From Eubacterium sp. (GTDB lineage: Bacteria; Bacillota; Clostridia; Lachnospirales; Lachnospiraceae): 40,860 nucleotides of DNA. Each line of letters opens with the position of its first letter. The first letter of the stretch is position 1. The notes under the pieces were generated by a model, which did not search any database, was not told where the DNA came from, and saw only the letters and a list, made by a program, of their open reading frames with translations. Below are positions 6,368 through 24,851 of this stretch, piece after piece. The stretch is from the NCBI GenBank assembly GCA_024698585.1, contig JAILRB010000042.1, forward strand, positions 1-40,860, written 5' to 3'. Both the position numbers and the translations under genes were made by a program.

Positions 6368-7030
6368 ATGGAAAATAAAAATAAACTGATTTATGTGATT
6401 GTACCAATTTTAACTTTTGTAATCGTTTTTTCAAAACACTACATTAGAAACTCTAATAAAGAGATGGAAAGCCTGCAGAATGCACAGCAGGAAGCCAGGG
6501 AAGCACGATCCAAGGCAGAAGAGGCAATGAAGCGCGGAAGGGATATCATAAATGGACAAACCGACCAGGAACAATCAGAAAATGGAATCGTGGAAGGAAA
6601 TACATATAGTAATTCTTATTTTGGATTCGTTCTTACCTTACCGGAAGGTTATGAATTAGAGAGCAATTCAGATTCTGAAATAGTGGCAACAAATTCAACA
6701 GATAAAACATTTATAAAGCTTTCCATTGATAGTGTTTCAGAAGGAGTTACATCAGAGCAGGCAATAGAAGCCTATAAAAAAGTAATTGAAGAAAGTCTTA
6801 AAGGGTCAATAGATAGTGTTGTAGTAGATTATAAGATTTCAAAAGTTAAAACTTGTACATTGGCTAATGAGGAGTACGTTTATTTCGATTATGAACAAGT
6901 ATACAGTGATGGGGATAAGAACTTGTTCAGAAGTATGATGCGATGCAAGGATGCGAAAGTTATTGGAATTACATTCAATGGAGATGAAAACCAAATGAAA
7001 CAGATGATGGAATACTTTAGTGCTGAATAA
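6368..7030 (+). CDS. Membrane-anchored protein of unknown function
   Basis: 220 residues. One N-terminal membrane segment (about 7-23) is followed by an Ala/Glu/Lys/Arg-rich stretch (about 30-57) predicted by eye as a coiled coil. A globular domain from about residue 75 begins YSNSYFGFVLTLPEGYEL. This type of domain (a short beta-rich lobe after an 'F..P.GY' motif) occurs in many Clostridia surface proteins. It is probably exported and tethered. It starts one base after the glycosyltransferase stop and is followed by a terminator, so the two are a bicistronic unit and it may assist polysaccharide synthesis. That role is inference only. Confidence 0.75.
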   Translation: MENKNKLIYVIVPILTFVIVFSKHYIRNSNKEMESLQNAQQEAREARSKAEEAMKRGRDIINGQTDQEQSENGIVEGNTYSNSYFGFVLTLPEGYELESNSDSEIVATNSTDKTFIKLSIDSVSEGVTSEQAIEAYKKVIEESLKGSIDSVVVDYKISKVKTCTLANEEYVYFDYEQVYSDGDKNLFRSMMRCKDAKVIGITFNGDENQMKQMMEYFSAE

Positions 7031-7064
7031 ATATCGCAAAAAGTGAAATAATAAAGTTATCAAA

Positions 7065-11823: not shown

Positions 11824-14094
11824 ATGAACAATAACGTAGTTGGTTTTCCAAGAGTCGGAAAGTTGAGAGAGTTAAAATTTATATCAGAAAAATACTTCCG
11901 CGGAGAAGTAAATGAGCAGGAACTGCAGCAGGTGGCAAAAGACCTTCGAGCAGAACATTGGAAATTTCAGAAGTCAGCAGGAATTCATTGGATTCCTTCC
12001 AATGATTTTTCTTTTTATGACGGAGTGCTGGATACCGCAGTGTTACTGAATGTGATTCCGAAGAAGTATCAGCAGCTGCAATTGGGTGAAACAGATACCT
12101 ACTTTGCAATGGCCAGAGGCTATCAGGGAGAAGCCGGGGATGTACCGGCGCTGGCAATGAAGAAATGGTTTAACACCAATTATCATTACCTGGTTCCGGA
12201 AATTAGTGACGACACAGAAATTAAACTGGTTGGAGAAAAGCCGTTTCTGGAATATCAGGAGGCGAAACAATTTGGAATTCAGACAAAGCCGGTGTTGGTT
12301 GGACCATTCACATTCCTGAAACTGGCGAAGTATCAGGGAACAAAGAAAGCGGAGGATTTTGCCGGAGATTTGGCAAAGGCTTATGCGGAAGCTCTTAAAA
12401 AATTAGGAGACTTAGGTGCGGAGTGGATTCAGCTTGATGAACCGGCATTGGTTCAGGATCTGAGTGCAGAGGATTTCGAATTATTCTATGAGCTTTATCA
12501 GGAAATTTTAGCAGCAAAGGGAACGGTTAAAGTTTTATTACAGACCTACTTTGGTGACATCAGAGATTATTATAAGGAAATCGTTACCCTGGATTTTGAT
12601 GGAATCGGATTGGATTTCGTGGAAGGAAAACAGAGCCTGTCTCTTGTTCAGAAATATGGACTTCCAAAAAATAAAGTCCTGTTTGCAGGATTGGTCAATG
12701 GAAAGAATATCTGGAAGAGTAATTACGAAACTGTCCTTGGAGCATTGGAAGAGTTAAAGGCCTATGCATCAGAAATTGTTTTATCCACATCCTGCTCACT
12801 ACTTCACGTTCCATATACCTTACAGAATGAGACTTCTTTGGAACCGGAAGTGGAACAGTACTTCGCGTTTGCTCTGGAAAAATTGCAGGAACTTAAGGAA
12901 TTGAGCGTTTTAACGGAAACTGATGATTATAAAGTGGAAAAGGAATATCTGGAAAACAAGGAATTGTTTGCGAAAGAAAGACTGTATCAGAACGACGATA
13001 TCAAGAAGCAGGTGGCAGACTTAAAGGAGGAAGAGTTCGTCAGACTTCCACTTCGTAAGGAAAGACAGAAACTGCAGAAAGAGGCATTGAACCTTCCATT
13101 GTTCCCGACCACCACCATTGGTTCCTTCCCACAGACAATTGAGGTAAAGAAAAACAGAACTGCATACAGAAAAGGGGAAATAGATAAGAACGCTTATGAC
13201 AATCGGGTATATGAGTTTATCAAGGATTGTATTGCAAAACAGGAAGAACTGGGAATTGATGTTCTGGTGCATGGGGAATATGAGCGAAATGACATGGTGG
13301 AATTCTTTGGAGAAAATCTGGAAGGCTATGTGTTTACGGAAAAGGCGTGGGTACAATCCTATGGAACCCGTTGTGTGAAACCACCGATTATCTTTGGAGA
13401 TGTAAAGCGAAGCAAACCGATTACGACCTCGTATTTGGAATACGCTCAGAGACTCACGGACCTTCCGGTGAAGGGGATGTTAACCGGACCGGTAACCATT
13501 CTGAACTGGTCCTTCCCACGAGAAGATATTTCCTTAAAGGAAATGGCATATCAGATCGGAATTGCCATTCGCAGTGAGGTGCTGGATTTAGAAAAGGCAG
13601 GAATTAAAATCATTCAGATTGATGAAGCGGCCTTAAAGGAAAAACTTCCGATTCGCAAAAGTGATTGGTATAGCGAGTATCTGGACTGGGCCATTCCGGC
13701 ATTTCGTTTATGCCACAGTGGCGTGAAACCGGAAACTCAGATTCACACCCATATGTGTTACAGCGAATTCAATGAAATCATTCACGACATCGACAATATG
13801 GATGCAGATGTTATTTCCTTTGAAGCATCCCGGTCGAAACTGACCATTCTGGATGCCATTCAGGAAAGCAATTTTGAAACAGAGGTGGGACCGGGGGTTT
13901 ACGACATTCATTCCCCGCGCGTTCCTTCTGTGGAGGAAATTGTGGAAGCTCTGAAAACAATGCTTGAGAAAATTGATGTGAACAAGCTTTGGGTGAACCC
14001 GGACTGCGGATTAAAAACAAGAGGAATTCCGGAAACGGAAGCCAGCCTTAAGAACCTGGTTCAGGCAGCAAAAATATTAAGAGAACAATATTAA
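11824..14094 (+). CDS. metE: Cobalamin-independent methionine synthase
   Basis: 756 residues, full length for MetE. It transfers a methyl group from 5-methyltetrahydropteroyl-glutamate to homocysteine, forming methionine. Two barrels are visible: the N-terminal one begins [17 protein letters not shown], and the catalytic C-terminal one starts around [12 protein letters not shown]. Zinc ligands are expected in HTHMCYSEF and the later [19 protein letters not shown] is also conserved. AAGGAGG precedes the ATG. metF follows 43 bp later, so enzyme and methyl-donor supply are co-transcribed. No SAM riboswitch or T-box was recognised upstream. An Rrf2-type operator lies at the start site. Confidence 0.97.
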
Positions 14095-14137
14095 AGAACA
14101 GGGCGGGCTTCTCCGCTCTGCAGAGAGAGGAATCATT

Positions 14138-14995
14138 ATGTTAATTTCAGATGTATATAAGAAAAAAGGAAGAAGCCTGTCCTTCGAAATTTTTCCACCA
14201 AAGAAGGATGAACAATTAAAAAATATTGATGAAACATTATCGGTGCTTAGTGAGTTGAATCCGGATTTTATTAGTGTGACCTTTGGGGCAGGTGGCGGTT
14301 CTAATTGCAACCGAACCATTGAGCTGGCAAAGAAAATTAAAGAGGAATATCATATTGAACCGGTGGTTCATCTGACCTGCTTAAGTTATGACAAAACAGA
14401 GATTGATGAATTTGCCAAAGTTCTGGAAGCAGAAGGGATTCAAAATATCTTGGCATTACGAGGAGACCGTAATCCAAGCCTTCCGGAAAAGAATGACTTT
14501 CATCATGCATCGGATCTGATTTCTTATATGAGAACGAAAGGAAACTTCTGCCTGGCAGGAGCCTGCTATCCGGAATGCCATCCGGAATCCGAAAATCGTG
14601 TCAGTGAAATGAGAAACCTGAAAGGAAAAGTAGATGCCGGAGCAGAAGTATTGTTATCCCAGCTGTTTTTCGACAATAATGAATTTTATCGTTTTGTGGA
14701 TGACTGTAGAATCGCGGAAATCAATGTCCCTGTTATTCCGGGAATCATGCCGGTAATCAATGCAGCTCAGATTAAACGGATGATTACCATGTGTGGCGCA
14801 TCCCTGCCAATCCGTTTCCAGAAAATCATCAGTAAATATGAAAGTAATAAGGAAGCCTTATTCGACGCTGGAATGTCTTATGCTACCAGCCAAATTGTGG
14901 ATTTACTGGCGAACGACATTGATGGAATTCACTTGTATACCATGAATAATCCAAGGGTTGCCAGAAGAATCTGTGAAGGAATTAAAAATTTATAG
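14138..14995 (+). CDS. metF: 5,10-methylenetetrahydrofolate reductase
   Basis: 285 residues, the usual length for bacterial MetF, a flavoprotein that reduces methylene-tetrahydrofolate to the 5-methyl form used by MetE. SFEIFPPKKDE carries the catalytic Glu. SVTFGAGGGS, ALRGDRN and LSQLFFDN are conserved active-site and flavin-binding segments, and PVIPGIMPV is also present. GAGAGGA precedes the ATG. It forms a two-gene unit with metE. No terminator was found after its stop; the promoter of the Cys/Met-rich leader begins 10 bp downstream, so some transcripts may read through. Confidence 0.95.
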   Translation: MLISDVYKKKGRSLSFEIFPPKKDEQLKNIDETLSVLSELNPDFISVTFGAGGGSNCNRTIELAKKIKEEYHIEPVVHLTCLSYDKTEIDEFAKVLEAEGIQNILALRGDRNPSLPEKNDFHHASDLISYMRTKGNFCLAGACYPECHPESENRVSEMRNLKGKVDAGAEVLLSQLFFDNNEFYRFVDDCRIAEINVPVIPGIMPVINAAQIKRMITMCGASLPIRFQKIISKYESNKEALFDAGMSYATSQIVDLLANDIDGIHLYTMNNPRVARRICEGIKNL

Positions 14996-15004
14996 AAAAA
15001 AGTG

Positions 15005-15033
15005 TTGACAGTAAAAAAAGGGAATGCTATAAT
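15005..15033 (+). promoter_or_regulatory. Strong promoter of the Cys/Met-rich leader and cystine-uptake operon
   Basis: Consensus TTGACA (15005-15010), 17-bp spacer, consensus TATAAT (15028-15033) with an upstream TGC extension. The strength implies that control depends on repression and/or attenuation. Confidence 0.85.
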
Positions 15034-15057
15034 ACCTACTATCCCGATAGGAAATAT
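15029..15057 (+). promoter_or_regulatory. Predicted Rrf2/CymR-type operator at the leader promoter
   Basis: ATAATACCTACT, seven bases, then TAGGAAATAT. It overlaps the -10 box and the transcription start, a repressor position. It matches the site at the rrf2 gene's own promoter (19854-19882) and the one at metE (11782-11810). Confidence 0.75.
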
Positions 15058-15077
15058 ATGATAAGGAGAGCGAAACA

Positions 15078-15230
15078 ATGAAATTTGGAATTTATGCGAC
15101 TAACAAAAAAATGTGTTGTGTGTGTATGGCTATGTATCAGTGTTGTTACATGGCTTGTTGTCGTGTGAAAAAATTTCATGAGATGCTTCTAACCCCTGCC
15201 GGACGGCGAAGGGGCGTATATGGAATCTGA
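15078..15230 (+). CDS. 50-residue Cys/Met-rich leader peptide (candidate sulfur attenuator)
   Basis: An ORF absent from ordinary length-cutoff gene calls. AAGGAGAG precedes the ATG at 15078 and the TGA is at 15228-15230. Residues 12-28 read MCCVCMAMYQCCYMACC: seven Cys, all TGT, and four Met within 17 residues, in the pattern CC-x-C-x5-CC-x3-CC. The tail is basic (TPAGRRRGVYGI). It has a consensus promoter with an Rrf2-type operator and is followed 26 bases after its stop by an intrinsic terminator, then by a cystine-uptake operon. It is best explained as a leader peptide whose translation senses Cys (and perhaps Met) tRNA charging. An alternative is a small metal-binding or modified peptide. 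No known family was recognised. Confidence 0.72.
   Translation: MKFGIYATNKKMCCVCMAMYQCCYMACCRVKKFHEMLLTPAGRRRGVYGI
15193..15214 (+). promoter_or_regulatory. Hairpin inside the 3' part of the leader ORF
   Basis: CCCCTGCC pairs with GGC-GA-AGGGG (8 bp with a two-base bulge and the loop GGAC). It is GC-rich against a poor background and lies 31 bases after the last Cys codon. It would be free when a ribosome stalls on the Cys codons and covered when the ribosome reaches the stop. Confidence 0.55.
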
Positions 15231-15255
15231 GAGAGGATAATATCTGTTTGTGCGT

Positions 15256-15290
15256 TAAGGAGCTTTCATGGAAAGCTCCTTATTTTTTTT
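15256..15290 (+). terminator. Intrinsic terminator downstream of the leader ORF (candidate attenuator)
   Basis: TAAGGAGCTTTC (15256-15267) pairs perfectly with GAAAGCTCCTTA (15271-15282), with a three-base loop and eight T residues. It lies between the leader ORF and the operon that shares the promoter. A short competing segment, GCTTCT at 15185-15190, could pair with AGGAGC at 15258-15263 (six pairs, one G-T). Confidence 0.85.
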
Positions 15291-15486
15291 GTACAAGATG
15301 AGGAAAATTCCGAAACAAGCGTAGCAGTTTCGGGGATTGGGAAAGGATTTAGTCAAATGAAAGAAAAATATCGTAAGTCCATGATTTTTCTTTTTCATAA
15401 TACACCTGAGAAATTCTGTTGCAGCATACGATGTTGTTAGAAAAGAACTTAGGAAATAAAAAGAAAAATATTTGGAGGAAAGATAA
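15291..15486 (+). other. Untranslated stretch between attenuator and first structural gene
   Basis: No promoter of convincing quality was seen here, so the downstream genes probably depend on read-through from 15005-15033. One hairpin is clear: CCGAAAC (15310-15316) with GTTTCGG (15327-15333). A weak A/T-only stem near 15362-15389 is followed by T residues. The rest is A-rich leader leading to GGAGGAAAG before the next ATG. Confidence 0.5.
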
Positions 15487-17379
15487 ATGAGAAAATTAAC
15501 AAAGAAAGCCATTGCGGTAACATTATCCGCAGCATTACTTACAACAACTTTTTTAAGCAATACAACAACTCAGGCAGGAGAGGAAGCACCAATTAAGAAA
15601 ATTGAAGTGACTTACCCATGGACTCCTGTTGAAGGAGGAACCACAGGAGATTACATTGCAGACTCCTACGATGGAGTGGAAGCAGGACATGTTTTCGAAT
15701 CGGTAACCCAGGAACGATTACTTGATATTTTAGCAAGTGAAGGAAACTATTACATTGTATTCGGTGGTCCGGAACATAGCACGACTCAATCGGTACTCGC
15801 AACAATTAATGAGCAGGCTAAAGAAAACGGAATCACAAAGATTTATCACTTTGATCCATATGTGGATGGATATCAGATTGATATTACAGATAAGGATACA
15901 GGATTCAAAGGAAACAATAAATCAGTTTCTGAATTATGGACCAGAATTAAAGAAGCACTTCCGGAAAATCCGGAAATCAACAATTTTAAGGGAGAAGACA
16001 CATTACTCTTTGCTTATGAAAATAAAGGTGGCGTGAAGAAAATCACAGGTTTTTATGCAAAGAAAAGCGGACTGAAAGCTCCGGGACCAAAGAATGAGAA
16101 AGAAGAAATCGCAAAGGTCTTTAAAGATAAAGAAGGAAACGTCGTACAGGCATCTGTACGAAGTGATTATGAATTCTTCAGTAGAAATTATAACGGATCA
16201 GCCTCTTATGTAGAACAGAGACAGGACCGTTCTGAAAACAGACTGGGAGCGGCAGTGGAAATCTTCACAAAGGATGACGAAACAGACTTCCCACTTCATC
16301 AGGTAAACTTTAATGAATTAATTAACCTGTTACAGTCACCGGGACAGAAATACATCTTCTTTGGAACTTCTTGGTGCCATAATACTCAGGCAATCATTGG
16401 CTCTGTGGCAAGAAAGGCGAAAGCTAACGGAATCCAGACTGTTTACGTATATGACACAACTCTTGGAAATCAGCTGACATTTGATGAAACAGACGTGAAT
16501 AAAGTAGTTGGAACCAATAGCGCATTTAATACCAGAAACAATGCCAACGTGAATGGAAATAACAACATTAGTTATCTTTACGGAGAACTTGCAAAATTAT
16601 TAGGAGACTTCCAGACAGAAAACAACTCTAAGCAGAACAACAGCATTGCATATTATCCAAATGGTGATTTGGAAGGAACGATTACATCTGTAAAACCTTG
16701 GGAAACTGCAGAAGCAGGAACCGTAACAAGTGCCATTCGTCTTCAGCTTCCATTCTTAATCGGATACGACAAAGATGCACAGCCGAAAGTAAACAAGCAG
16801 TGGTTACATGCAAACAAGACAGAAGGAACCGAAGGAACTTATACAGAATATATGTTAGAACTTGCATGGGTTCTTGGAACAGAGGAAGCAAAGGCTTCCA
16901 CATCAAAAAGAGATGGATTAAGCATCGTGGATTTTGCAGCTGAAGCTGTCAAGGAATTAAGCGCAGTATTAGGAGACAAGGAAATCGGACAGCAGACAAA
17001 TGAACAGGAAACAACAACTTCTGGTGAAGAGACTACTGGAACGACAGAGGCTACTTCAAAGGAAGAAACTACTGTAAAAAATGGGGCAGTAAAGAAGTCT
17101 GCCGTTAAGAAGGCAACAAAAAAGAAATCAGCGAAAAAACTTAACATTCAGTTGGAAAAGGCTGCCGGCGTATCAGGATATCAGATTCAGATTTTCAAAA
17201 GTAAGAAGGCAAAGAAAGCATTAGTAAGTAAGAAAATCAATAAGGTACGTGTAACAATTACTTCTAAGAAATTGAAGAATCAAAAGAAACTGTTTGTCAA
17301 GGTTCGCGCTTATGTAAAGAATGGAAAGAAGTATCAGTATAGCGATTGGTCTTCTTTGAAAGCAGTAAAGATTAAATAA
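15487..17379 (+). CDS. Secreted protein with two thioredoxin-like domains and a C-terminal fibronectin-like domain
   Basis: 630 residues. A Sec signal peptide (about 1-31, ending TTTQA) is followed by two similar domains. One is at about 60-170, with the degenerate loop FGGPEHSTTQ; the second, at about 270-380, has FGTSWCHNTQ in the same place. Both loops follow a hydrophobic YIVFG/YIFFG strand, as in thioredoxin folds. Cys in the second loop is the only cysteine of the whole protein, so it would be a monothiol. A Thr/Glu linker and a Lys-rich stretch lead to a terminal domain (about 550-630: VSGYQIQIF... VKVRAY... SDWS) like the Fn3-type modules of clostridial surface proteins. It is first in an operon with a cystine-type symporter; extracellular thiol/disulfide handling is inferred. 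Confidence 0.72.
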   Translation: MRKLTKKAIAVTLSAALLTTTFLSNTTTQAGEEAPIKKIEVTYPWTPVEGGTTGDYIADSYDGVEAGHVFESVTQERLLDILASEGNYYIVFGGPEHSTTQSVLATINEQAKENGITKIYHFDPYVDGYQIDITDKDTGFKGNNKSVSELWTRIKEALPENPEINNFKGEDTLLFAYENKGGVKKITGFYAKKSGLKAPGPKNEKEEIAKVFKDKEGNVVQASVRSDYEFFSRNYNGSASYVEQRQDRSENRLGAAVEIFTKDDETDFPLHQVNFNELINLLQSPGQKYIFFGTSWCHNTQAIIGSVARKAKANGIQTVYVYDTTLGNQLTFDETDVNKVVGTNSAFNTRNNANVNGNNNISYLYGELAKLLGDFQTENNSKQNNSIAYYPNGDLEGTITSVKPWETAEAGTVTSAIRLQLPFLIGYDKDAQPKVNKQWLHANKTEGTEGTYTEYMLELAWVLGTEEAKASTSKRDGLSIVDFAAEAVKELSAVLGDKEIGQQTNEQETTTSGEETTGTTEATSKEETTVKNGAVKKSAVKKATKKKSAKKLNIQLEKAAGVSGYQIQIFKSKKAKKALVSKKINKVRVTITSKKLKNQKKLFVKVRAYVKNGKKYQYSDWSSLKAVKIK

Positions 17380-17393
17380 AGGAGATGGTTTAG

Positions 17394-18746
17394 GTGAGTG
17401 GTATTGATTGGTTATCAGTAGCGGCACTGGTGGTAGTGCTGGCACTGTTTGTAGGAATCTATTATTTGAAAAACAAGGTTGATTTTACAATCTTGACCTT
17501 AGGAACTTTAGTAGCAGGTGTGATTGTAGGGGCAATATTTAGCGGACATACCACATGGATCACACCGATAGGAAAAATATACGTTAGCGTATTAAATGCA
17601 CTGGTAACGCCACTGATTATTGTGGCGATTATCAGCAGCATCACATCTTTATCCAATACAGCACAGTTAAAGGGAATCGGACTTCGTTCCATTATTACAT
17701 TATTATCCACAACATTATTGTCCATCATCCTGGCGTTGGGATTAGGACTGACCTTTGGAATCGGAAGAAATTCCTATCTTTCCCTGGACGGAATTGATGC
17801 CAGCACATTCCAGGCGAAGGTGACATCTTTTTCGGAAGTGCTGATTGGATTTTTCCCAAGAAACGTGATATCGGATATCTCTGAGGAAAACACTATTCCG
17901 GTCATTCTGTTTGCACTTTTAATTGCAGTATCTTATGTTCTGGTTGCAAACAAGACTCCGGAAAAGGTGAAGCCGTTTAAGGATTTTATTGAAGCATTCA
18001 AGGAAATAATTTTTAAGGCATTGGATTTCATCATCGGCTTAACACCGTATGCAGTACTTTCCCTGATTGCAACAAGTATTGGAAACGGATTAAGTAAATC
18101 AGGAATCATCTGGTCTTTACTGGTATTATTGCTTGTTTCCTTTATCGCATTTATCATAGACATCTGGTTTATTAATGGAGTATTGATTTCCGTCTTTGCA
18201 AAATTGAATCCGGTGAAGTTCTTTAAGAAGATTATTCCGGCCCAGGTCATTGCATTCTCTACGCAATCCAGTGCAGGAACTTTGCCGGTGGCAACTGAAA
18301 TCCTGACAGATAAAATCGGGGTGGATGGAAGTGTAGCCAATGTAACCACTCCTCTTGGTACAACCATCGGAATGCCTGGATGTGCAGGAATCTGGCCGGT
18401 ACTTTTGGCAGTTTATGGAATTAACGGATTACAGCTTCATTACGGACTTGGAAATTATTTATTACTGATTGTTGTGGCATTATTCGTTTCCTTAGGAACT
18501 GCCGGAGTACCCGGAACAGCTACCATTACTACGGCAAGTGTATTGACTGTATTGGGACTTCCATTGGAAATCATCGTATTGACGATTCCAATCTCAGCAT
18601 TGGCTGACACCGGAAGAACAGCGACCAATATCACAGGAGCAATTGTATCGGCAACCATTGTAGGACGACAGGAAAATAAATTAGACGATACTATTTTTGA
18701 ACAATCAGGAACCGTGCAGTCTTCGAAAGAAGCAGCAACTGCATAG
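17394..18746 (+). CDS. tcyP: L-cystine (TcyP-like) cation symporter
   Basis: 450 residues with eight or more membrane helices, of the dicarboxylate/amino acid:cation symporter family. Conserved segments are TTPLGTTIGMPGCAGIWP, GTAGVPGTATITTAS and DTGRTATNITGA, the last giving the substrate-binding hairpin and helix regions. The family also carries glutamate, aspartate or serine; TcyP is preferred because the closest resemblance by eye is to that subgroup and because of the sulfur-gene context. The start is GTG at 17394 after AAAGGAGA. It is 14 bp downstream of the secreted thioredoxin-like gene and 15 bp upstream of the next ORF, so it is central to the operon. Confidence 0.82.
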   Translation: MSGIDWLSVAALVVVLALFVGIYYLKNKVDFTILTLGTLVAGVIVGAIFSGHTTWITPIGKIYVSVLNALVTPLIIVAIISSITSLSNTAQLKGIGLRSIITLLSTTLLSIILALGLGLTFGIGRNSYLSLDGIDASTFQAKVTSFSEVLIGFFPRNVISDISEENTIPVILFALLIAVSYVLVANKTPEKVKPFKDFIEAFKEIIFKALDFIIGLTPYAVLSLIATSIGNGLSKSGIIWSLLVLLLVSFIAFIIDIWFINGVLISVFAKLNPVKFFKKIIPAQVIAFSTQSSAGTLPVATEILTDKIGVDGSVANVTTPLGTTIGMPGCAGIWPVLLAVYGINGLQLHYGLGNYLLLIVVALFVSLGTAGVPGTATITTASVLTVLGLPLEIIVLTIPISALADTGRTATNITGAIVSATIVGRQENKLDDTIFEQSGTVQSSKEAATA

Positions 18747-18761
18747 AAAGGAGTGTTGGAA

Positions 18762-19829
18762 ATGAGAAAGAATAATAAATTCATAAAAAATATTGTAGTA
18801 AGCCTTGTGTTAGTTTCTTCTCTGGTTATTACACAGCCAATCTATGTAAAAACCGTACAGGCTGCGGAAATCGAGGATTGTGATTTAGACGGTTATGATG
18901 ACCATACAGGAAATCCGGTTCCTTGGATTGGATTTGATTCCACAAAGGGCGAAGCCATTCCGGGGGACTGGGACCACTCAACCATTTATAAAAGTGTCAA
19001 GGCATACCAGGATGCTCACAGTAAAAAGGAAGAACCAAAGGAAAAATCCGGAAGTTCTTCTGAAACAAAAAGTAGTGCAGCAGGAAAAAGTACTGTAAAA
19101 GAAAATGGCAGCAACAGTGGTAATCAGAATACTTCTTCTAAGCAGTCTTCTTCCGTGAAAAAGAGCAGTACTGCAAAAAAAAGTACGCCAAAAAAAGAAA
19201 AGGTGGAACCTTCGAAAAAGACAGAAGAAAAAGAGACAGTGACTACAGAGGAAACAACCGAAGAAACCACAGAGACAAAAAAGAAACATAAGAAGAAACA
19301 TAAAAAAGCTGCAGTGACAAAGGATGATTTGAAACAGAAGGAAAATGAAGGACAGGACCTGCAGGAAGAGACAGAACAGAATGAAGAAAGCGAAATTGCT
19401 GTGGGATCCTTTGACATCAATGAGGCAGACGGAAGTATTATTCATGCAGGAAGTAAGCTGATTGTATCCGGAGCAGATTTTGAAGGAAACATCGAAGGCA
19501 TCGAAATTGAAATCCACTCAAAAAATCATATTCATTTAGGATATGCGAATACATTAGAGGATGGAAGTTTTGAATCGCAGGTATCTATACCGGAAACTCT
19601 TCCGGCAGGAAACCATAAAATTGTATTGAAATACCAGGGTAGTGTAATTGCGACAAAGAACATTCAGGTGGGCGAAAAAGTAGCGGATACATTCTTAAGT
19701 GCCTTGACGGTCGGATTCACCGGAGAAAACCAGGGATTGATTCCGGGACTCCTTCTCTTAGCCGGTCTGTTTACAGTAGGAATCCTTACCTTATTAAGCG
19801 GAAGAATTGCAGAAAAAATCAAATCCTAG
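18762..19829 (+). CDS. Secreted, C-terminally membrane-anchored surface protein
   Basis: 355 residues. A signal peptide (about 1-35, ending VQAAE) leads to a short acidic motif DCDLDGYDDHTG resembling a calcium-binding loop. Then comes a long low-complexity Ser/Lys/Thr/Glu linker (about 85-215) with KKKHKKKHKK. A beta-rich Ig-like domain follows (about 225-315: GSKLIVSGADFEGN... LPAGNHKIVLKYQG), and then a C-terminal membrane helix GLIPGLLLLAGLFTVGIL with a short basic tail. The linker would span the wall. The ATG at 18762 has AAAGGAG eight bases upstream; an in-frame GTG at 18753 overlaps that site. No enzyme motif was seen. Its operon suggests a role in sulfur-source capture, which is unproven. 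Confidence 0.75.
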   Translation: MRKNNKFIKNIVVSLVLVSSLVITQPIYVKTVQAAEIEDCDLDGYDDHTGNPVPWIGFDSTKGEAIPGDWDHSTIYKSVKAYQDAHSKKEEPKEKSGSSSETKSSAAGKSTVKENGSNSGNQNTSSKQSSSVKKSSTAKKSTPKKEKVEPSKKTEEKETVTTEETTEETTETKKKHKKKHKKAAVTKDDLKQKENEGQDLQEETEQNEESEIAVGSFDINEADGSIIHAGSKLIVSGADFEGNIEGIEIEIHSKNHIHLGYANTLEDGSFESQVSIPETLPAGNHKIVLKYQGSVIATKNIQVGEKVADTFLSALTVGFTGENQGLIPGLLLLAGLFTVGILTLLSGRIAEKIKS

Positions 19830-19858
19830 TTGACAAGTAGGAGATAACATTTTATAAT
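19830..19858 (+). promoter_or_regulatory. Promoter of the rrf2-gshA operon
   Basis: Consensus TTGACA (19830-19835), 17-bp spacer, consensus TATAAT (19853-19858). The -35 begins just after the stop codon of the preceding gene. Confidence 0.85.
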
Positions 19859-19882
19859 ACCCACTAAGCATATAGGAATTAT
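19854..19882 (+). promoter_or_regulatory. Predicted autoregulatory Rrf2/CymR-type operator
   Basis: ATAATACCCACT, seven bases, then TAGGAATTAT. It is the most symmetrical of the three copies: ATAATACCCA against the complement of TAGGAATTAT differs at two positions. It overlaps the -10 and start site of the regulator's own gene. Confidence 0.78.
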
Positions 19883-19902
19883 GGACGGGAAAGGAGAAGA
19901 CA

Positions 19903-20349
19903 ATGAAAATATCAAAGAAAAGCAGATATGGAATCACAGCGTTAATTGATTTAGCAATCAATTCGAAGGATGGACATGTTGCATTAAGCCATATTGCGGA
20001 ACGAAATGGTATTTCCTTACAGTATTTAGAGCAGGTTTTTGCCGGTCTCAGAAGAGTAGGTATTATAAAAAGTATTAAAGGAGCTCAGGGAGGATATCTG
20101 CTGAATAAACCGTCGAAGAGTATCACAGTGGCAGAAATCATTGAGGCATTAGATGGAACGTATCATATTGACAGTGAGGAAGGAACAAAAAACAGTGAGA
20201 ATCCTGCAATTGCAATTACGCTTCAAACAAGAATCATTGATAAGGTCAATGAAGAGATGGATGCGATTCTTTTAAATATCACATTGGATGATTTGGTGAA
20301 TGATTATAAGAGCAACAATGAATTCAATGAGCAGATGTATTATATCTAA
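19903..20349 (+). CDS. Rrf2-family regulator, CymR-like
   Basis: 148 residues. The Rrf2 winged helix is clear: MKISKKSRYGITALIDLA at the start, ISLQYLEQVFAGLRRVGII as recognition region and KGAQGGYLLNKPSKSITVAEIIEALDG as wing and dimer helix. It contains no cysteine, so it cannot bind an iron-sulfur cluster as IscR does. This fits CymR, which in Bacillus and Staphylococcus represses cysteine uptake and transsulfuration genes together with O-acetylserine thiol-lyase. A palindromic site overlaps its promoter, and the same site is at metE and the leader/cystine operon. The genes downstream are sulfur genes. No cysK is in the window. Confidence 0.87.
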   Translation: MKISKKSRYGITALIDLAINSKDGHVALSHIAERNGISLQYLEQVFAGLRRVGIIKSIKGAQGGYLLNKPSKSITVAEIIEALDGTYHIDSEEGTKNSENPAIAITLQTRIIDKVNEEMDAILLNITLDDLVNDYKSNNEFNEQMYYI

Positions 20350-20378
20350 GAGATAAAATAAATTACCATTCATTTTAT

Positions 20379-20410
20379 AGAGAACTTTAAAAGGTTATTT
20401 AAAGTTCTCT
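20379..20410 (+). terminator. Partial terminator or processing hairpin between rrf2 and gshA
   Basis: AGAGAACTTTAAA (20379-20391) pairs perfectly with TTTAAAGTTCTCT (20398-20410). The trailing sequence is TTCAGC, a poor T-tract. Read-through into gshA is likely, giving more regulator than enzyme message or the reverse. Confidence 0.5.
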
Positions 20411-20441
20411 TTCAGCATAAATAATTGACAGGAGTTTTGGT

Positions 20442-21725
20442 ATGGAAGTTCGGAAACAGTTAATTAATGAATATCTTTTAGAAGGGCAATTTGGTCTGGA
20501 AAAGGAAAGCCTTCGTGTTGACAGGGAAGGCTTTTTGTCTCATACCCCTCATCCCTTCGATGATCTGGTTCAGATTGATCGGGATTTTTGTGAAAATCAG
20601 ATTGAAATTATTACCGGAGTCAATGACAGCGTGGATGATGTATATGATGAATTAAAAAGTTTACATAATCTGGCAGTGGAACGCCTGTACCATCTGGAAT
20701 CCGGTAGGGAATATATCTGGAATTTTTCCAATCCTCCGTTCGTGAAAAGTGAGGAGGACATCCCCATTGCAAAATTCCATGGTCACTTAAAAACAAAGGA
20801 ACGATATCGGGAATATCTTTCCAAAAAATATGGTAGAAGGAAAATGCTGTATTCCGGGATTCATTTTAATTTTTCTTTTTCCAAGCGATACCTGGAGCAG
20901 GCATTCCATGACAGTGGGGAGGAAGATTTTAAGACCTTTAAGGATACATTATATCTGGAACTGGCACAAAAGGTGGTTCGCTACGGTTGGCTCATTGTAT
21001 ATCTGACAGCAGCCAGTCCGCTAATGGATGGTTCGTTTTTAGACTATGAAAAAATCGGGACGGACGTCTTAAGTCCTTATGCATCCGGTCGTTGCAGTGA
21101 AATCGGATATTGGAATCAGTTTGTTCCGATTCTGGACTATTCCAATTTAAGCTCTTATACGGACAGTATGCAGGAATATGTGGATCAGGGACAGCTAAAA
21201 GCGGCAGGAGAGTTGTACTATCCGGTAAGACTGAAACCCTTAGGGGAGAATTCCTTGGAAAACTTAAAGGAGACCGGAGTGAATCATATTGAACTTCGAA
21301 ACATCGATTTAAATCCTTTGGCAGAGATTGGAATTCAGAAGGAAGATATTCATTTCCTTCATCTGCTCCTGGTTTATTTAAATGCATTGGAGTATGAGAC
21401 TCTTGCGGACTTTGAACAGGTGATGTCCATTAAGAATATTAAGGAAGCAGCAAAGTTTAATGATAAAAAAATAGAAATTGAAACCGGATGGGATCAAAAG
21501 AAAAACATCCGGGAACTTACCAAAAAAATCTTAGAGGATATGGAAAACTTTTTCCGTCCTTTCGGAAACCCGGAAACAGAATCAGTTCTGGCATATCAGA
21601 AAAATAAGGTACTCAATGAAAAAGCGCGTTATGCGAAGAAAATCATGCATGCTTTTGAAGGAGGTTATGTGAATCATGGCCTGGAACAATCAAAGGCGTA
21701 TGCAAAACGGGTTTTGGCAAAATAA
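20442..21725 (+). CDS. gshA: Glutamate-cysteine ligase (GshA type 1-like, stand-alone)
   Basis: 427 residues, similar to E. coli GshA and to the N-terminal half of bifunctional GshAB. It joins glutamate and cysteine with ATP to form gamma-glutamylcysteine. Recognised segments are FGLEKESLRVDREGFLSHTP, DFCENQIEIITG, YSGIHFNFSFS and VNHIELRNIDLNP. There is no ATP-grasp GshB domain, and no gshB lies nearby, so the product may be gamma-glutamylcysteine itself unless a second gene exists elsewhere. It is shorter than E. coli GshA by roughly 90 residues, mainly at the C-terminus. The start at 20442 follows ACAGGAG. Confidence 0.87.
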   Translation: MEVRKQLINEYLLEGQFGLEKESLRVDREGFLSHTPHPFDDLVQIDRDFCENQIEIITGVNDSVDDVYDELKSLHNLAVERLYHLESGREYIWNFSNPPFVKSEEDIPIAKFHGHLKTKERYREYLSKKYGRRKMLYSGIHFNFSFSKRYLEQAFHDSGEEDFKTFKDTLYLELAQKVVRYGWLIVYLTAASPLMDGSFLDYEKIGTDVLSPYASGRCSEIGYWNQFVPILDYSNLSSYTDSMQEYVDQGQLKAAGELYYPVRLKPLGENSLENLKETGVNHIELRNIDLNPLAEIGIQKEDIHFLHLLLVYLNALEYETLADFEQVMSIKNIKEAAKFNDKKIEIETGWDQKKNIRELTKKILEDMENFFRPFGNPETESVLAYQKNKVLNEKARYAKKIMHAFEGGYVNHGLEQSKAYAKRVLAK

Positions 21726-21745
21726 AGGAAAAGCAGGAATGAAAA

Positions 21746-22516
21746 ATGTGTGAATTGTTTGGCTACAGTGCAGAAACTAAATATGAAGTCAATGAATACT
21801 TAAAGACTTTTTTTAAGCATAGTCCGAAGAATCCCAATGGATGGGGACTTGCCTGTATGGATGGCAATGAGGCAATGATTGAAAAAGAACCGATTCAGGC
21901 CACGAAAAGCAACTACTTAAAGGAACGTTTGAAGCAGCCGGTTCTATCTCATAATGTGTTTGGACACATTCGGTTTGCCACCATTGGAAATGAAGAGTAC
22001 AGTAATTGCCATCCTTTAAGTGGAAAGGATGCAACGGGGCGACGTTGGACAGTCATCCATAATGGGACAATTTTTGACTTCGAGCCACTGTCTAAATATA
22101 TCAAGGTCCAGGAAGGAACCACGGACAGTGAACGAGTTTTATTGTATATCATAGATAAAATTAATCGGACAGAGACCGAGGATAAACGATTAAGCGGTCG
22201 AGAACGATTTGAAATCATCGATTGTCTGATTGGAAACATGGCAAAAGGAAACAAACTGAATTTTATGATTTATGATGGCGAGTATATGTATGTCCACACG
22301 AATTATAAAGATTCACTTTATTATCTGGAAAAGGAAGGAGCGGTTTTCTTTTCCACAGGACCACTGACCGGAGAGTGCTGGAAAAATGTTCCCTTCACCC
22401 GATTGTTGGCATATAAGAATGGGAAACTGATTTTTACCGGAAAAAGCCATGGACATGAGTATATTGACAGCGAAGAAAACATGCGATTTATTTTTCAGAA
22501 TTATTCACAATTATAA
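21746..22516 (+). CDS. Class II glutamine amidotransferase-like hydrolase (YafJ/EgtC-like)
   Basis: 256 residues. The mature N-terminus would be Cys2 (MCELFGYSAE), the nucleophile of Ntn-type class II amidotransferases, with HIRFATIGN and the HNG motif in VIHNGTI forming the glutaminase pocket. There is no synthase domain, so it should hydrolyse a gamma-glutamyl amide instead of feeding ammonia to a partner domain. It lies 20 bp after gshA. In ergothioneine pathways an EgtC of this type removes glutamate from a gamma-glutamyl-cysteinyl intermediate, but EgtB and EgtD are not seen here. Activity on gamma-glutamyl thiols is a hypothesis. Confidence 0.83.
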   Translation: MCELFGYSAETKYEVNEYLKTFFKHSPKNPNGWGLACMDGNEAMIEKEPIQATKSNYLKERLKQPVLSHNVFGHIRFATIGNEEYSNCHPLSGKDATGRRWTVIHNGTIFDFEPLSKYIKVQEGTTDSERVLLYIIDKINRTETEDKRLSGRERFEIIDCLIGNMAKGNKLNFMIYDGEYMYVHTNYKDSLYYLEKEGAVFFSTGPLTGECWKNVPFTRLLAYKNGKLIFTGKSHGHEYIDSEENMRFIFQNYSQL

Positions 22517-22527
22517 AGGAGAGCAGT

Positions 22528-23679
22528 ATGGCATACGATATTGAGACACGATGTATTCACGGAGAGGAAACACAGGAGGAGCATCCATTTGGAGCTTTAT
22601 CCGTGCCAATCTTTCAGACGGCGACTTTTTCACATCCGGGAATCGGGGAAACAACAGGGCACAATTATACAAGAGAGAGTAATCCTACCCGGGACGAGTT
22701 AGAACGACTGGTTTCTTCTTTGGAAGGCGCTATTGATACGGTAGCCTGTTCCAGCGGAATGGCTGCTATCAGATTGTGTATGGAATTATTTGATTTGGGA
22801 GATCACATTATTTGTACCGATGATTTATATGGCGGATCGGTTCGATTGTTTGATTCTGTTGGAAAAACTCATGGATTGGAATTTTCTTATGTAGACACTT
22901 CGGATATCGAACAAATTAAGGCGGCAATCAAACCGAATACAGCAGCGTTTTATATTGAGACACCAAGTAATCCGACAATGAAGGTAACAGACTTAGAAGC
23001 GGTAATCAAGCTGGCAAAAGAACACAATATTTATGTAGCGGTGGACAATACCTTTTTAACACCGTATTTCCAGAATCCGTTAAAACTGGGAGCGGATGCG
23101 GTTATTCACAGCGGAACAAAATATCTGGGTGGTCACAATGATACGCTGGCAGGTTTTTTCTCCACAAACAATGAATATGTAGCAAATAAATTACGTTTCT
23201 TATATAAAACCACCGGAAGCAATCTGGCACCTTTTGACAGTTTTCTGCTGATTCGTGGAATCAAGACCTTAGGTGTTCGTATGGAACGTTCCGCTGAAAA
23301 CGCACTAAAAATTGCTAATTGGCTGAAAACCCAGGAGAAAATCAAGGAAGTTTATTATGTGGGACTTCCGGAACATCCGGGATATGAAATCAATCAAAAG
23401 CAGGCCAGAGGAGCCGGCGGAATGATTTCCTTCCGTGTGGATTGTAAGGAAACTGCGGAACAAATTTTAGAGCGGGTAAAAATCATTGCCTTTGCAGAAA
23501 GTTTGGGAGGTGTGGAATCCTTAATAACCTATCCAATGACCCAGACCCATGCGGACGTACCGGTAGAAATTCGGGAGAAACTGGGAATTACAGATACACT
23601 GCTTCGAATCTCTGTTGGAATCGAAAGCGCAGAAGATTTAATTGCAGACTTGAATCAGGCATTAAATGGTGAGGAATAG
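22528..23679 (+). CDS. Cystathionine gamma-synthase/gamma-lyase family PLP enzyme
   Basis: 383 residues of the Cys/Met-metabolism PLP family (fold type I). Lys198 in HSGTKYLGGHND is the cofactor lysine. NYTRESNPTRDELE, CSSGMAAI and ETPSNPTMKVTDL are the substrate and phosphate-binding segments. Members act as cystathionine gamma-synthase, gamma-lyase, beta-lyase or O-acylhomoserine sulfhydrylase, and sequence inspection cannot decide which. Followed by a PatB/MalY-type beta-lyase gene 2 bp later, the simplest reading is a synthase making cystathionine from cysteine (MetI/MetB role). A gamma-lyase for the reverse direction remains possible. Confidence 0.88.
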   Translation: MAYDIETRCIHGEETQEEHPFGALSVPIFQTATFSHPGIGETTGHNYTRESNPTRDELERLVSSLEGAIDTVACSSGMAAIRLCMELFDLGDHIICTDDLYGGSVRLFDSVGKTHGLEFSYVDTSDIEQIKAAIKPNTAAFYIETPSNPTMKVTDLEAVIKLAKEHNIYVAVDNTFLTPYFQNPLKLGADAVIHSGTKYLGGHNDTLAGFFSTNNEYVANKLRFLYKTTGSNLAPFDSFLLIRGIKTLGVRMERSAENALKIANWLKTQEKIKEVYYVGLPEHPGYEINQKQARGAGGMISFRVDCKETAEQILERVKIIAFAESLGGVESLITYPMTQTHADVPVEIREKLGITDTLLRISVGIESAEDLIADLNQALNGEE

Positions 23680-23681
23680 AA

Positions 23682-24851
23682 ATGAAATATGATTTTGATC
23701 AGATAATCGACAGAAAAAATACTAACAGTTTGAAATATGATTTTGCCAGGGAACGCGGCATGAGAGAAGACGCCCTTCCTCTTTGGGTGGCAGATATGGA
23801 TTTTCAGACAGCACCGGAAATTCTGGAACGACTGCACCAGGCAGTGGACCACGGGATTTTCGGTTATACAGAAGGTAAGGAACCTTATTTCAATGCAGTA
23901 AAGCATTGGCTTAAGACCTACCATCACTGGGAAGTAAAGAGGAATTGGTTAATTAAGACTCCGGGAATCGTCTTTGCTTTGGCGATGGCGGTAAAGGCCT
24001 ACACGAAAGAAGGGGAAAGCGTTCTCATTCAGCAGCCGGTCTATTATCCGTTCAGTGAAGTCATTGAAGACAATGGACGAAAGTTGATCAATAATTCCCT
24101 GAAAAATATTCAGGGACATTACGAAATCGATTTTGAGGATTTTGAAGAAAAGATTGTGACCCATAATGTGAAATTATTCTTGCTTTGTAATCCATATAAT
24201 CCGGCAGGAAGAGTATGGACGAAAGAAGAGTTAAAACGTATGGGAGAAATCTGTCTGCGCCACGGAGTGATTGTGGTCAGTGATGAAATCCATGCAGACT
24301 TTACTTTTTCCGGATATGAACACACTGTGTTTGCATCTCTGTCGGAAGAAATTGCAGACATTACTGTGACCTGCACCTCGCCAACGAAGACCTTTAATTT
24401 CGCAGGATTGCAGATATCCAACATCTTTATCTCAAATCAAACGTTACGCAGAGCCTTCCGGAAACAGGTGGATGCAGCAGGATACAGTCAGGTAAACACC
24501 ATGGGATTGGTAGCCTGCCAGGCTGCTTACGAGGAAGGAAGACCATGGTTGGAAGCGTTAAAGGAGTATCTGACAGAGAATCTTGATTATGTGAGAAACT
24601 TTTTGAAGGAAGAACTTCCCCAGGTGAAATTGATTGAGCCGGAAGGAACGTATTTAATCTGGCTGGATTTCAGGGAACTGAATTTATCCAAGGAAGCGTT
24701 GGAGGACTTGATTGTCAATAAAGCGAAACTATGGTTAGACAGCGGAGTTATTTTCGGAGAAGATGGCATTGGTTATCAGCGAATCAATATTGCATGTCCG
24801 AGAAAAATTCTGGAGCAGGCAATGAACCAACTGAAAAGTGCAATGGAATAA
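23682..24851 (+). CDS. Cystathionine beta-lyase, PatB/MalY family
   Basis: 389 residues of aminotransferase class I/II fold. The PLP lysine is Lys236 in SPTKTFNFAGLQ. LPLWVADMDF, NPYNPAGRVW and SDEIHADF are hallmarks of the PatB/MalY group, which cleaves C-S bonds of cystathionine or cysteine. It starts 2 bp after the preceding PLP enzyme and shares its transcript. It would release homocysteine for methylation by the MetE of this window. A cysteine desulfhydrase activity giving sulfide is also common in this group. Confidence 0.9.
   Translation: MKYDFDQIIDRKNTNSLKYDFARERGMREDALPLWVADMDFQTAPEILERLHQAVDHGIFGYTEGKEPYFNAVKHWLKTYHHWEVKRNWLIKTPGIVFALAMAVKAYTKEGESVLIQQPVYYPFSEVIEDNGRKLINNSLKNIQGHYEIDFEDFEEKIVTHNVKLFLLCNPYNPAGRVWTKEELKRMGEICLRHGVIVVSDEIHADFTFSGYEHTVFASLSEEIADITVTCTSPTKTFNFAGLQISNIFISNQTLRRAFRKQVDAAGYSQVNTMGLVACQAAYEEGRPWLEALKEYLTENLDYVRNFLKEELPQVKLIEPEGTYLIWLDFRELNLSKEALEDLIVNKAKLWLDSGVIFGEDGIGYQRINIACPRKILEQAMNQLKSAME

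Follow-up and report, generated by a model that had tools for sequence, protein, structure and literature searches.

Attenuators of the E. coli trp type control the transcription of amino-acid operons through a ribosome that translates a leader peptide. In Firmicutes, the sensing of amino acids by leader RNAs is mostly credited to T-boxes. The excerpted text of a 2010 survey (PMC2965389) is consistent with this predominance; according to it, no classical leader peptide was known outside Proteobacteria and Actinobacteria before the survey's own case in bacilli, the histidine leader peptides preceding hisS*/hisZ, where a classical leader replaces the T-box in Firmicutes. For cysteine, passages of PMC8632094 describe uORFC-8-2, a predicted attenuator upstream of cysS in Rhodobacterales, which combines a uORF containing Cys codons with an intrinsic terminator. 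The polycysteine sORF attenuators of mycobacteria (Canestrari 2020, as cited in portions of PMC9094748 and PMC13236596) are described as short Cys ORFs that respond to cysteine and act on translation, and actinobacterial cys leaders, as far as the excerpted text of PMC1262725 goes, are short ORFs with Cys codons before cysteine genes, without terminators. The Cys-codon leader design is known mainly from other bacterial phyla.

Here we describe a leader in a Eubacterium sp. of the family Lachnospiraceae. The window, i.e. the whole stretch of DNA that was analysed, is 40,860 nucleotides long, and the leader, the operon and the Rrf2 and glutamate-cysteine ligase genes described below lie on its + strand. 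The region 15005-15290 is probably a ribosome-mediated transcription attenuator sensing charged tRNA-Cys, which most likely would let the cell switch on the operon behind it when cysteine is short. Judged by those features that can be tested in silico, the leader appears to work like a classical amino-acid attenuator: it has in common with the E. coli trp type a leader ORF in which codons for the sensed amino acid are clustered, a terminator and an antiterminator that exclude each other, and a competing stem further upstream. It differs in the codon, which is Cys, in the host, which belongs to the Lachnospiraceae and not to Proteobacteria or Actinobacteria, and in geometry, because the ORF extends 38-44 nt past the antiterminator strand, so that a terminating ribosome would separate the two strands instead of covering one of them.

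The described cysteine leaders are different in other respects. As given in the passages cited above, uORFC-8-2 has two tandem Cys codons (14-15) and is associated with cysS only, in alpha-proteobacteria, whereas the Lachnospiraceae leader precedes other genes, and cysS, which marks the location of uORFC-8-2, was not found downstream of it. The mycobacterial and actinobacterial ORFs are, in the same excerpts, leaderless and lack a conserved terminator hairpin, in contrast to the terminator found here, and the hisS*/hisZ leaders, to the extent that the excerpts cover them, belong to histidine and to the class Bacilli. None of the NCBIfam models, among them those of actinobacterial Cys leaders (NF042934, NF042936, NF042933), matched the leader ORF (ORF 1) or a second Cys ORF behind it (ORF 2) at E ≤0.1, although the same library does name a leader in Jiangella. 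A preliminary description of the locus, made from the DNA alone, knew of no described leader of such sequence; we likewise found no description of a cysteine leader in Lachnospiraceae in the open-licence papers searched.

Promoter, leader ORF and operon

The leader is preceded by a sigma-70 type promoter, TTGACA-17-TATAAT (15005-15033), which agrees with the consensus in 12 of 12 positions and has a TG ahead of the -10 box. At a looser limit (9/12) shuffled sequences contained 2.0 sites on average, thus it is the exactness of the match that counts. The promoter is conserved in the alignment of five genomes of the genus (own included), with an identical -35 box and TATAAT or TATTAT as the -10 box. 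The Shine-Dalgarno sequence AAGGAG (15063-15068), also kept in the five aligned genomes, is followed by ORF 1, MKFGIYATNKKMCCVCMAMYQCCYMACCRVKKFHEMLLTPAGRRRGVYGI (15078-15230, 50 amino acids), which contains seven TGT codons (residues 13, 14, 16, 22, 23, 27 and 28) and Met at residues 12, 17, 19 and 25. Cys makes up 0.94% of the residues in + strand frames of at least 150 amino acids, and seven Cys within 17 residues occur once in the window, where 200 first-order Markov simulations gave an expectation of 0.005 occurrences. In the five aligned leaders of the genus Cys 13, 14, 16, 22, 27 and 28 are invariant; besides these and the start Met, so are F3, M19, M25, A26 and F33. By sequence, ORF 1 is a translatable leader with a run of codons for one amino acid. 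Cys is the only codon run; Met codons beyond the start number 3-6 in each of nine leaders compared, some of the recurrent ones falling within a hairpin in the Cys run (see below). A joint Cys/Met ('sulfur') signal is conceivable.

A terminator of perfect stem follows at 15256-15290, consisting of 12 uninterrupted base pairs (15256-15282) and eight T; one site of this kind was found, as compared with a mean of 0.3 in shuffled sequences. A terminator hairpin was present after the leader ORF in all nine leaders folded, and the leader as a whole (15041-15300) is more stably folded than shuffled versions of it (z -3.89). The hairpin at 15193-15214, which would lie in the loop of the antiterminator, is present in the sequence and in the folds, and hairpins of other sequence are predicted at its position in two relatives, G206 and G201.

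Three genes follow. Gene 1 (15487-17379) codes for an exported protein which probably has thioredoxin-like domains: no Pfam family was found at the cut-off, and in a structural model of low confidence (mean pLDDT 47.5) the PDB matches include PDI and thioredoxin folds. Gene 2 (17394-18746) encodes an SDF-family symporter (PF00375), probably for cyst(e)ine uptake as suggested by its context, and gene 3 (18753-19829) a protein of no family, judged by eye to be exported from its N-terminus. It is a fair guess that a surface reductase feeds the cyst(e)ine symporter. A glutamate-cysteine ligase gene is located at 20442-21725, and in E. oxidoreducens a relative of this gene follows the leader. The metE and metF genes lie upstream of the leader, the terminator being 260 nt behind metF. 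The stretch 11824-24851 can be described as a sulfur amino-acid cluster of metE, metF, the Cys-leader operon, an Rrf2 gene, the glutamate-cysteine ligase gene and genes of further enzymes, which beyond the ligase are a class-II amidotransferase (weak EgtC match), a cystathionine lyase/synthase-type enzyme and a PatB-type C-S lyase.

All the elements listed in the preliminary description (the consensus promoter, a 50-codon ORF with seven TGT and four Met codons in residues 12-28, the hairpin, the perfect-stem terminator, and an operon for a symporter and two exported proteins) were thus found again. It had overlooked a palindrome at the transcription start and the second Cys ORF.

Predicted alternative structures of the leader RNA

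The antiterminator strand CAUGAGAUGCUUCU (15177-15190) can pair with the left arm of the terminator. In the genome of the window (G000) CAUGA and GCUUCU of this strand pair with AGGAGC..UCAUG of the terminator left arm and loop. The preliminary description had proposed that GCTTCT pairs with AGGAGC once the ribosome stalls, and had considered the antiterminator to be only six pairs long. The pairing was predicted in all six leaders of the main family, and it is longer than supposed: CATGA (15177-15181) pairs with TCATG of the terminator loop and extends the GCTTCT/AGGAGC helix to a duplex of -18.3 kcal/mol, which was equalled by 1.2% of 500 shuffles. The corresponding energies (kcal/mol, with the share of shuffles as good) were -19.7 (0) in G207, -13.0 (11.6%) in G206, -17.5 (3.4%) in G201, -20.1 (0) in G220 and -13.0 (5%) in E. 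oxidoreducens. In G000, G207, G201 and G220 the antiterminator strand is not surpassed as a partner of the left arm by any distant part of the leader; in G206 and E. oxidoreducens another stretch pairs slightly better (-14.1 and -13.4).

Stalling was modelled by folding the RNA behind a ribosome placed at the first or the last Cys codon, up to the left arm. The antiterminator was the minimum free energy (MFE) structure of this free RNA in all six leaders, and with the ribosome at the stop codon the terminator formed in all six. For the full-length free RNA the terminator was the MFE structure in five of the six leaders, which implies that antitermination must be kinetic, set by the order of synthesis. 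As a second control, we counted the pairs that the 32 nt directly behind the ribosome make with the left arm, in 300 shuffles. The observed number was reached by few shuffles of G000 (13/300), G207 (1/300), G206 (8/300) and G220 (5/300), and also of G033 (4/300), a distant leader; the control was weak for G201 (43/300) and E. oxidoreducens (39/300), and for the distant leaders G162 (136/300) and G221 (68/300) it gave no support for an antiterminator. Taken together, an antiterminator is predicted in the six main-family leaders and in G033, with good shuffle controls in five of these seven, G000 and G207 being near-identical and thus not independent. In G033, which represents another genus and another downstream gene, the antiterminator is an unbroken helix of eight pairs, GUUUUCUG/CAGAAAAC.

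In all six leaders 38-44 nt separate the antiterminator strand from the stop codon, despite differing codons in between. The strand itself, AAATTTCAT..GCTTCT (AAATTTATG..GCTCC in G201), falls into phase 0 of the ORF in four leaders (G000, G207, G201 and E. oxidoreducens) and into phase 2 in the two others (G206 and G220). Conservation of almost identical bases in spite of this frame change points to a constraint on the RNA, not on the peptide.

Two further stems were recognized by pairing and covariation. One is a hairpin inside the Cys run, GCUAUGUA...UACAUGGC (15129-15154), with 97.9% of the alignment cells paired in six leaders and two-sided changes in two of its eight pairs; in single-sequence folds it was not significant in 3/5. 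The other joins the segment at the start codon, AUGAAAUUU (15078-15086), to AAAUUUCAU (15171-15179), with 92.6% of the cells paired and a two-sided change in one of nine pairs, two of the nine being broken in E. oxidoreducens. For the two stems together, 95.1% of the cells are paired as compared with 24-50% when slid; their three two-sided pairs were reached by 14 of 500 column shuffles and their covariation score by 5 of 500, these covariation figures being inflated by the relatedness of the leaders.

In the mechanism that we propose from these folds, the leading ribosome would, when cysteine is plentiful, pass the Cys codons and reach the stop codon, 38-44 nt beyond the antiterminator strand. 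Standing there it would separate this strand from the left arm of the terminator, the terminator would form and transcription would end at about 15290. When Cys-tRNA is short, the ribosome would stall at residues 13-28 and leave CAUGAGAUGCUUCU free to pair with AGGAGC..UCAUG ahead of the synthesis of the right arm, so that the polymerase could continue into the operon of the thioredoxin-like protein and the symporter. In the absence of translation the start-codon segment would pair with AAAUUUCAU, competing with part of the antiterminator. The attenuator reading of the preliminary description is thus supported in an amended form: a ribosome at 15230 was thought to mask 15185-15190, but it would instead stand between the two strands, and an operator and a second Cys ORF are added.

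Distribution of the leader and rival explanations

Gene 1 was detected (E ≤1e-10) in 6 of the 23 genomes of the genus, namely in G000, G207, G201, G206, G220 and G221, and in all six it is preceded by a Cys-rich leader ORF with a Shine-Dalgarno sequence and a terminator; it was not found in the 17 other genomes, several of which are incomplete. The leader peptide of G221, MSTIRVFVRNIHMCCMMCCCERYYIIPCLCA, contains seven Cys but is unlike the others; this leader, too, has a terminator of its own. In E. oxidoreducens DSM 3217 the same leader, with four Cys codons, precedes a glutamate-cysteine ligase gene (gshA), and in two further genera a Cys leader with a terminator precedes an M20 peptidase gene (G033, nine Cys codons; G162, four). 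M20 enzymes of such kind act on N-acyl-cysteine compounds in Bacillus. The genes behind the leaders code for an SDF symporter, for which cystine is the presumed substrate, a probably thioredoxin-like protein, glutamate-cysteine ligase and M20 peptidase, and all nine leaders precede a gene of the same direction in a context plausible for cysteine supply. Leaders of other genera have Cys (and Met) codons in common and little else; G221, G033 and G162 show little other similarity, yet the Cys codons and the layout with the terminator are kept. Comparison across Lachnospiraceae for conserved Cys codons and antiterminator/terminator pairing, which had been suggested in the preliminary description as a check, came out in favour of the attenuator, with the Cys run and the terminator conserved in all six gene-1 genomes and in E. 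oxidoreducens.

The distribution of the leader is narrow. A covariance model gave strong matches in 2 of 397 sampled genomes of the family (own and E. oxidoreducens) and in 5 of the 23 genomes of the genus. Eight matches in the 397 genomes were weak, two of them (L129 and L135) being the Cys leaders of G033 and G162 and six not recognisable as such. Six weak matches in the genus included no leader; the frames rich in Cys that L169 and L171 contain run antisense to long ORFs. With a profile of the leader peptide (A1), 58 of the 397 genomes had matches at E ≤0.1; the 30 loci read, on both strands, included one new true leader, that of E. oxidoreducens, and 28 which looked like chance. An enlarged profile (A5) matched 23 of 130 genomes at E ≤0.3 and revealed no new leader; it includes the peptide of G033, which was not among the matches, and the sample of 130 genomes may not contain G033. 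An ORF with a terminator-like site from this search (L154) was dropped since it lies within another reading. None of the phage records resembled the leader.

The 1.2-1.3 kb read upstream of relatives of the symporter in G148, G141 and G191, which belong to three other genera, contained no Cys-run leader. Matches in the gene-1 family search were mostly to its C-terminal repeat, and the four outside this repeat (G148, G141, G191 and G198) had no Cys-run leader in the stretches read. In G148 a 29-residue ORF with three Cys stands before the symporter gene. On the reverse strand of L128 (about 1570-1608) a 12-codon ORF, MPVSFCVHFCRI, lies behind promoter-like sequence, just before an rpsL-like gene in G406.

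Alternatively, ORF 1 might be the gene of a small Cys-rich protein (a thiol buffer or a metal peptide) with its own terminator, and the operon might be regulated by the Rrf2 operator alone. Such an arrangement would suit the strong conservation of the operator, its recurrence in front of a cysK gene that lacks a Cys ORF (see below), and the fact that ORF 1 has its own Shine-Dalgarno sequence and terminator. We regard it as unlikely, considering that the C-terminal part of ORF 1 is unconserved whereas the antiterminator strand is kept across the frame change, that the dissimilar leaders of G221, G033 and G162 retain Cys codons and terminator, and that all nine leaders stand before genes of the kind described above. 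Somewhat less probable still is that the Cys-rich nascent chain is the sensor, through arrest by redox state, metal or antibiotic, and not charged tRNA-Cys. The invariance of F3, M19, M25, A26 and F33 and the recurrence of Met in the nine leaders could be taken in this sense, and ribosome-mediated attenuation was shown for an antibiotic response in B. subtilis (PMC4191407), but the leaders in other genera share little besides Cys (and Met) codons, and all five invariant residues map to RNA elements (start-codon stem, Cys hairpin or conserved RNA strand) that can account for them.

Control of the terminator by a ligand-binding RNA (T-box or riboswitch), with an incidental ORF, is very improbable. 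In the excerpted text of PMC2940859 Cys T-boxes control cysteine symporters of C. perfringens, and some other clostridia lack T-boxes of this type; here, no Rfam family, T-box included, reached the gathering score in the window or E ≤1 in 14990-15490, and what the leaders share is Cys codons, not a folded aptamer. We give hardly any credence to the reading that the terminator, 260 nt behind metF, is the 3' end of the metE-metF operon and unrelated to the Cys ORF, as a perfect promoter lies between metF and the terminator and the same layout occurs behind other genes in E. oxidoreducens and G220. The metal or thiol peptide, the end of the met operon and the T-box were considered and dropped. 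Against the transcription attenuator sensing charged tRNA-Cys, which we prefer, we count the weak or negative shuffle controls (G201 and E. oxidoreducens; G162 and G221), the weak duplex of G206, the competing stretches in G206 and E. oxidoreducens, the preference of the full-length RNA for the terminator, the presence of only four Cys codons in E. oxidoreducens and G162, the narrow distribution and the symporter relatives without a Cys-run leader.

A candidate Rrf2 operator and a second cysteine ORF

The palindrome ATACCTACTATCCCGATAGGAAATAT (15032-15057) is located at the transcription start and shares the last two bases of the -10 box. It is near-identical in the five aligned genomes of the genus and in E. 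oxidoreducens, recurs before cysK and is a candidate operator of the Rrf2 family. In its own genome it is the sole full match, one other place with three mismatches lying in an apparently coding stretch. The pattern ATACCNAYTANNNCGATAGGAAA was found at 14 loci in a set of 84,980 species. Among 397 genomes of the family, two (G000 and G103) contain a very similar pattern when one mismatch is tolerated. The Cys leader is present at five of the 14 loci (L084, L087, L089, L091 and L094). In L082, a Lachnospiraceae MAG, the pattern stands right after the -10 box and directly before cysK, without a Cys ORF. Five of the remaining loci look like chance. In a Treponema genome (L086, 3885-3907) about 20 nt separate the end of the pattern from the start of a gene for an ABC transporter ATPase, behind which a permease gene lies, and a second Treponema genome (L088, 1017-1039) has the same flank. 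In Jiangella endophytica (L085) the pattern is at 7024-7046 and a leader, MRSVLLTKRGHIDLMRIASAAC, at 6863-6931 on the reverse strand, with its start codon 115 nt from the start of the pattern; NF042934 of NCBIfam names it a putative leader peptide. The combination of operator and Cys leader may recur in Actinobacteria, or this locus may be one lucky match.

A candidate reader of the operator is encoded in the same cluster (19903-20349). The protein belongs to the Rrf2 superfamily, the best NCBIfam match at 120.4 bits, ahead of the CymR equivalog (115.9, against a cut-off of 195) and IscR (114.4), and its best solved relatives are IscR and CymR. It contains no Cys residue and so lacks the Cys cluster ligands of IscR; 'CymR-like' refers here only to these missing ligands and to the genomic context. 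CymR is a repressor of cysteine genes in B. subtilis, as described in part of PMC3828012. A CymR-like Rrf2 repressor probably governs initiation at 15032-15057, and we infer that the product of 19903-20349 is the protein that binds there.

Behind the terminator, all six gene-1 genomes contain a second Cys ORF, MKEKYRKSMIFLFHNTPEKFCCSIRCC (15357-15440), which ends with PEKFCCSIRCC and is degenerate in G221. In four lineages the codons for PEKFCCSIRC show 19 synonymous and 3 non-synonymous pairwise differences (the pairs are not independent), suggesting selection on the peptide or at least on its Cys codons. The first paired Cys codon is codon 21, 21, 21, 21 and 22 in five genomes, while the preceding residues are mostly poorly conserved. 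In the 5' half of ORF 2 an arm formed by TCCA and AUUUUUCUUUUU (15378-15395) can pair with the ribosome-binding region of gene 1, the predicted partner being AAAAAGAAAAAU with the Shine-Dalgarno sequence GGAGG (15458-15478). The energies of this pairing (kcal/mol; in parentheses the shuffles of either side as good, of 500) were -21.6 (0, 0) in G000, -17.2 (9, 20) in G207, -15.7 (53, 39) in G206, -18.0 (5, 7) in G201, -25.5 (0, 0) in G220 and -8.3 (287, 95) in G221. Other ribosome-binding windows paired as well with ORF 2 in 2/74 (G000), 23/74 (G206), 7/74 (G201) and 0/74 (G220) cases, and other 60-nt windows were as good as ORF 2 in 1/1089, 9/201, 3/202 and 1/202 cases, respectively. The arms vary in sequence between lineages: that of G201 pairs better with the site of G220 (-21.4) than with its own (-18.0), and that of G206 almost equally well with the site of G201. 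Consensus folding of the region yielded two small hairpins only and did not find the long pairing.

A ribosome stalled at the Cys codons of ORF 2, together with a queued one, would clear this pairing. Between naked RNA and this state the predicted openness of the gene-1 Shine-Dalgarno sequence rises from 0.51 to 0.95 (G000), 0.51 to 0.93 (G207), 0.24 to 0.85 (G206), 0.34 to 0.63 (G201) and 0.45 to 0.52 (G220). With one stalled ribosome alone the values are 0.66, 0.54, 0.27, 0.48 and 0.44, and with a ribosome at the ORF 2 stop codon 0.58, 0.61, 0.24, 0.43 and 0.54, in the same order, so that in G220 the ribosome at the stop opens the site more than the stalled state does. The case for an ORF 2 switch is weak in G206 as regards the pairing and in G220 as regards the opening, and G221 is at odds with it. 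A profile of ORF 2 (A2) matched 22 of 397 genomes at E ≤0.02; among the 20 loci read only the own genome was convincing. The segment AGCATACGATGTTG (15406-15451) is almost unchanged in all these genomes, G221 included in spite of its divergence, the one change being in G206; a small hairpin spanning the Cys codons can form from it. The hairpin CCGAAACAAGCGTAGCAGTTTCGG (15310-15333) belongs to an intergenic repeat that is dispersed in the own genome, where three further similar places have a longer version. Of the five aligned genomes, G000 and G207 alone carry it in the interval from the terminator to ORF 2.

We read the locus as an Rrf2 operator, a Cys transcription attenuator and, less surely, a Cys translation attenuator. 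The CymR-like repressor at 15032-15057 would form the upstream layer and ORF 2 a downstream, translational one. That two Cys-codon switches act in series behind the operator, the first on transcription past 15290 and the second on translation of gene 1, is a tentative proposal, and ORF 2 as a translation attenuator is a lead, not a result. In Salmonella mgtCBR, two short ORFs in series are said (PMC3641672) to control transcription of a Mg-transport operon; in contrast to that arrangement, no terminator follows the second ORF here, and its predicted effect is on translation.

In B. subtilis, RNA polymerase outruns the ribosomes, as reported in the excerpted text of PMC9226507. If this were true here too, coupling of leader translation to termination would be hampered. 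The Lachnospiraceae leader would need ribosome and polymerase to be close, and it would offer a direct test of whether the 'runaway' transcription of B. subtilis applies to the class. If the proposed attenuator is real, a switch that reads the ribosome does in Lachnospiraceae the T-box type of job for cysteine, and with ORF 2 acting in the way suggested above, one and the same codon would be read twice, once for transcription and then for translation.
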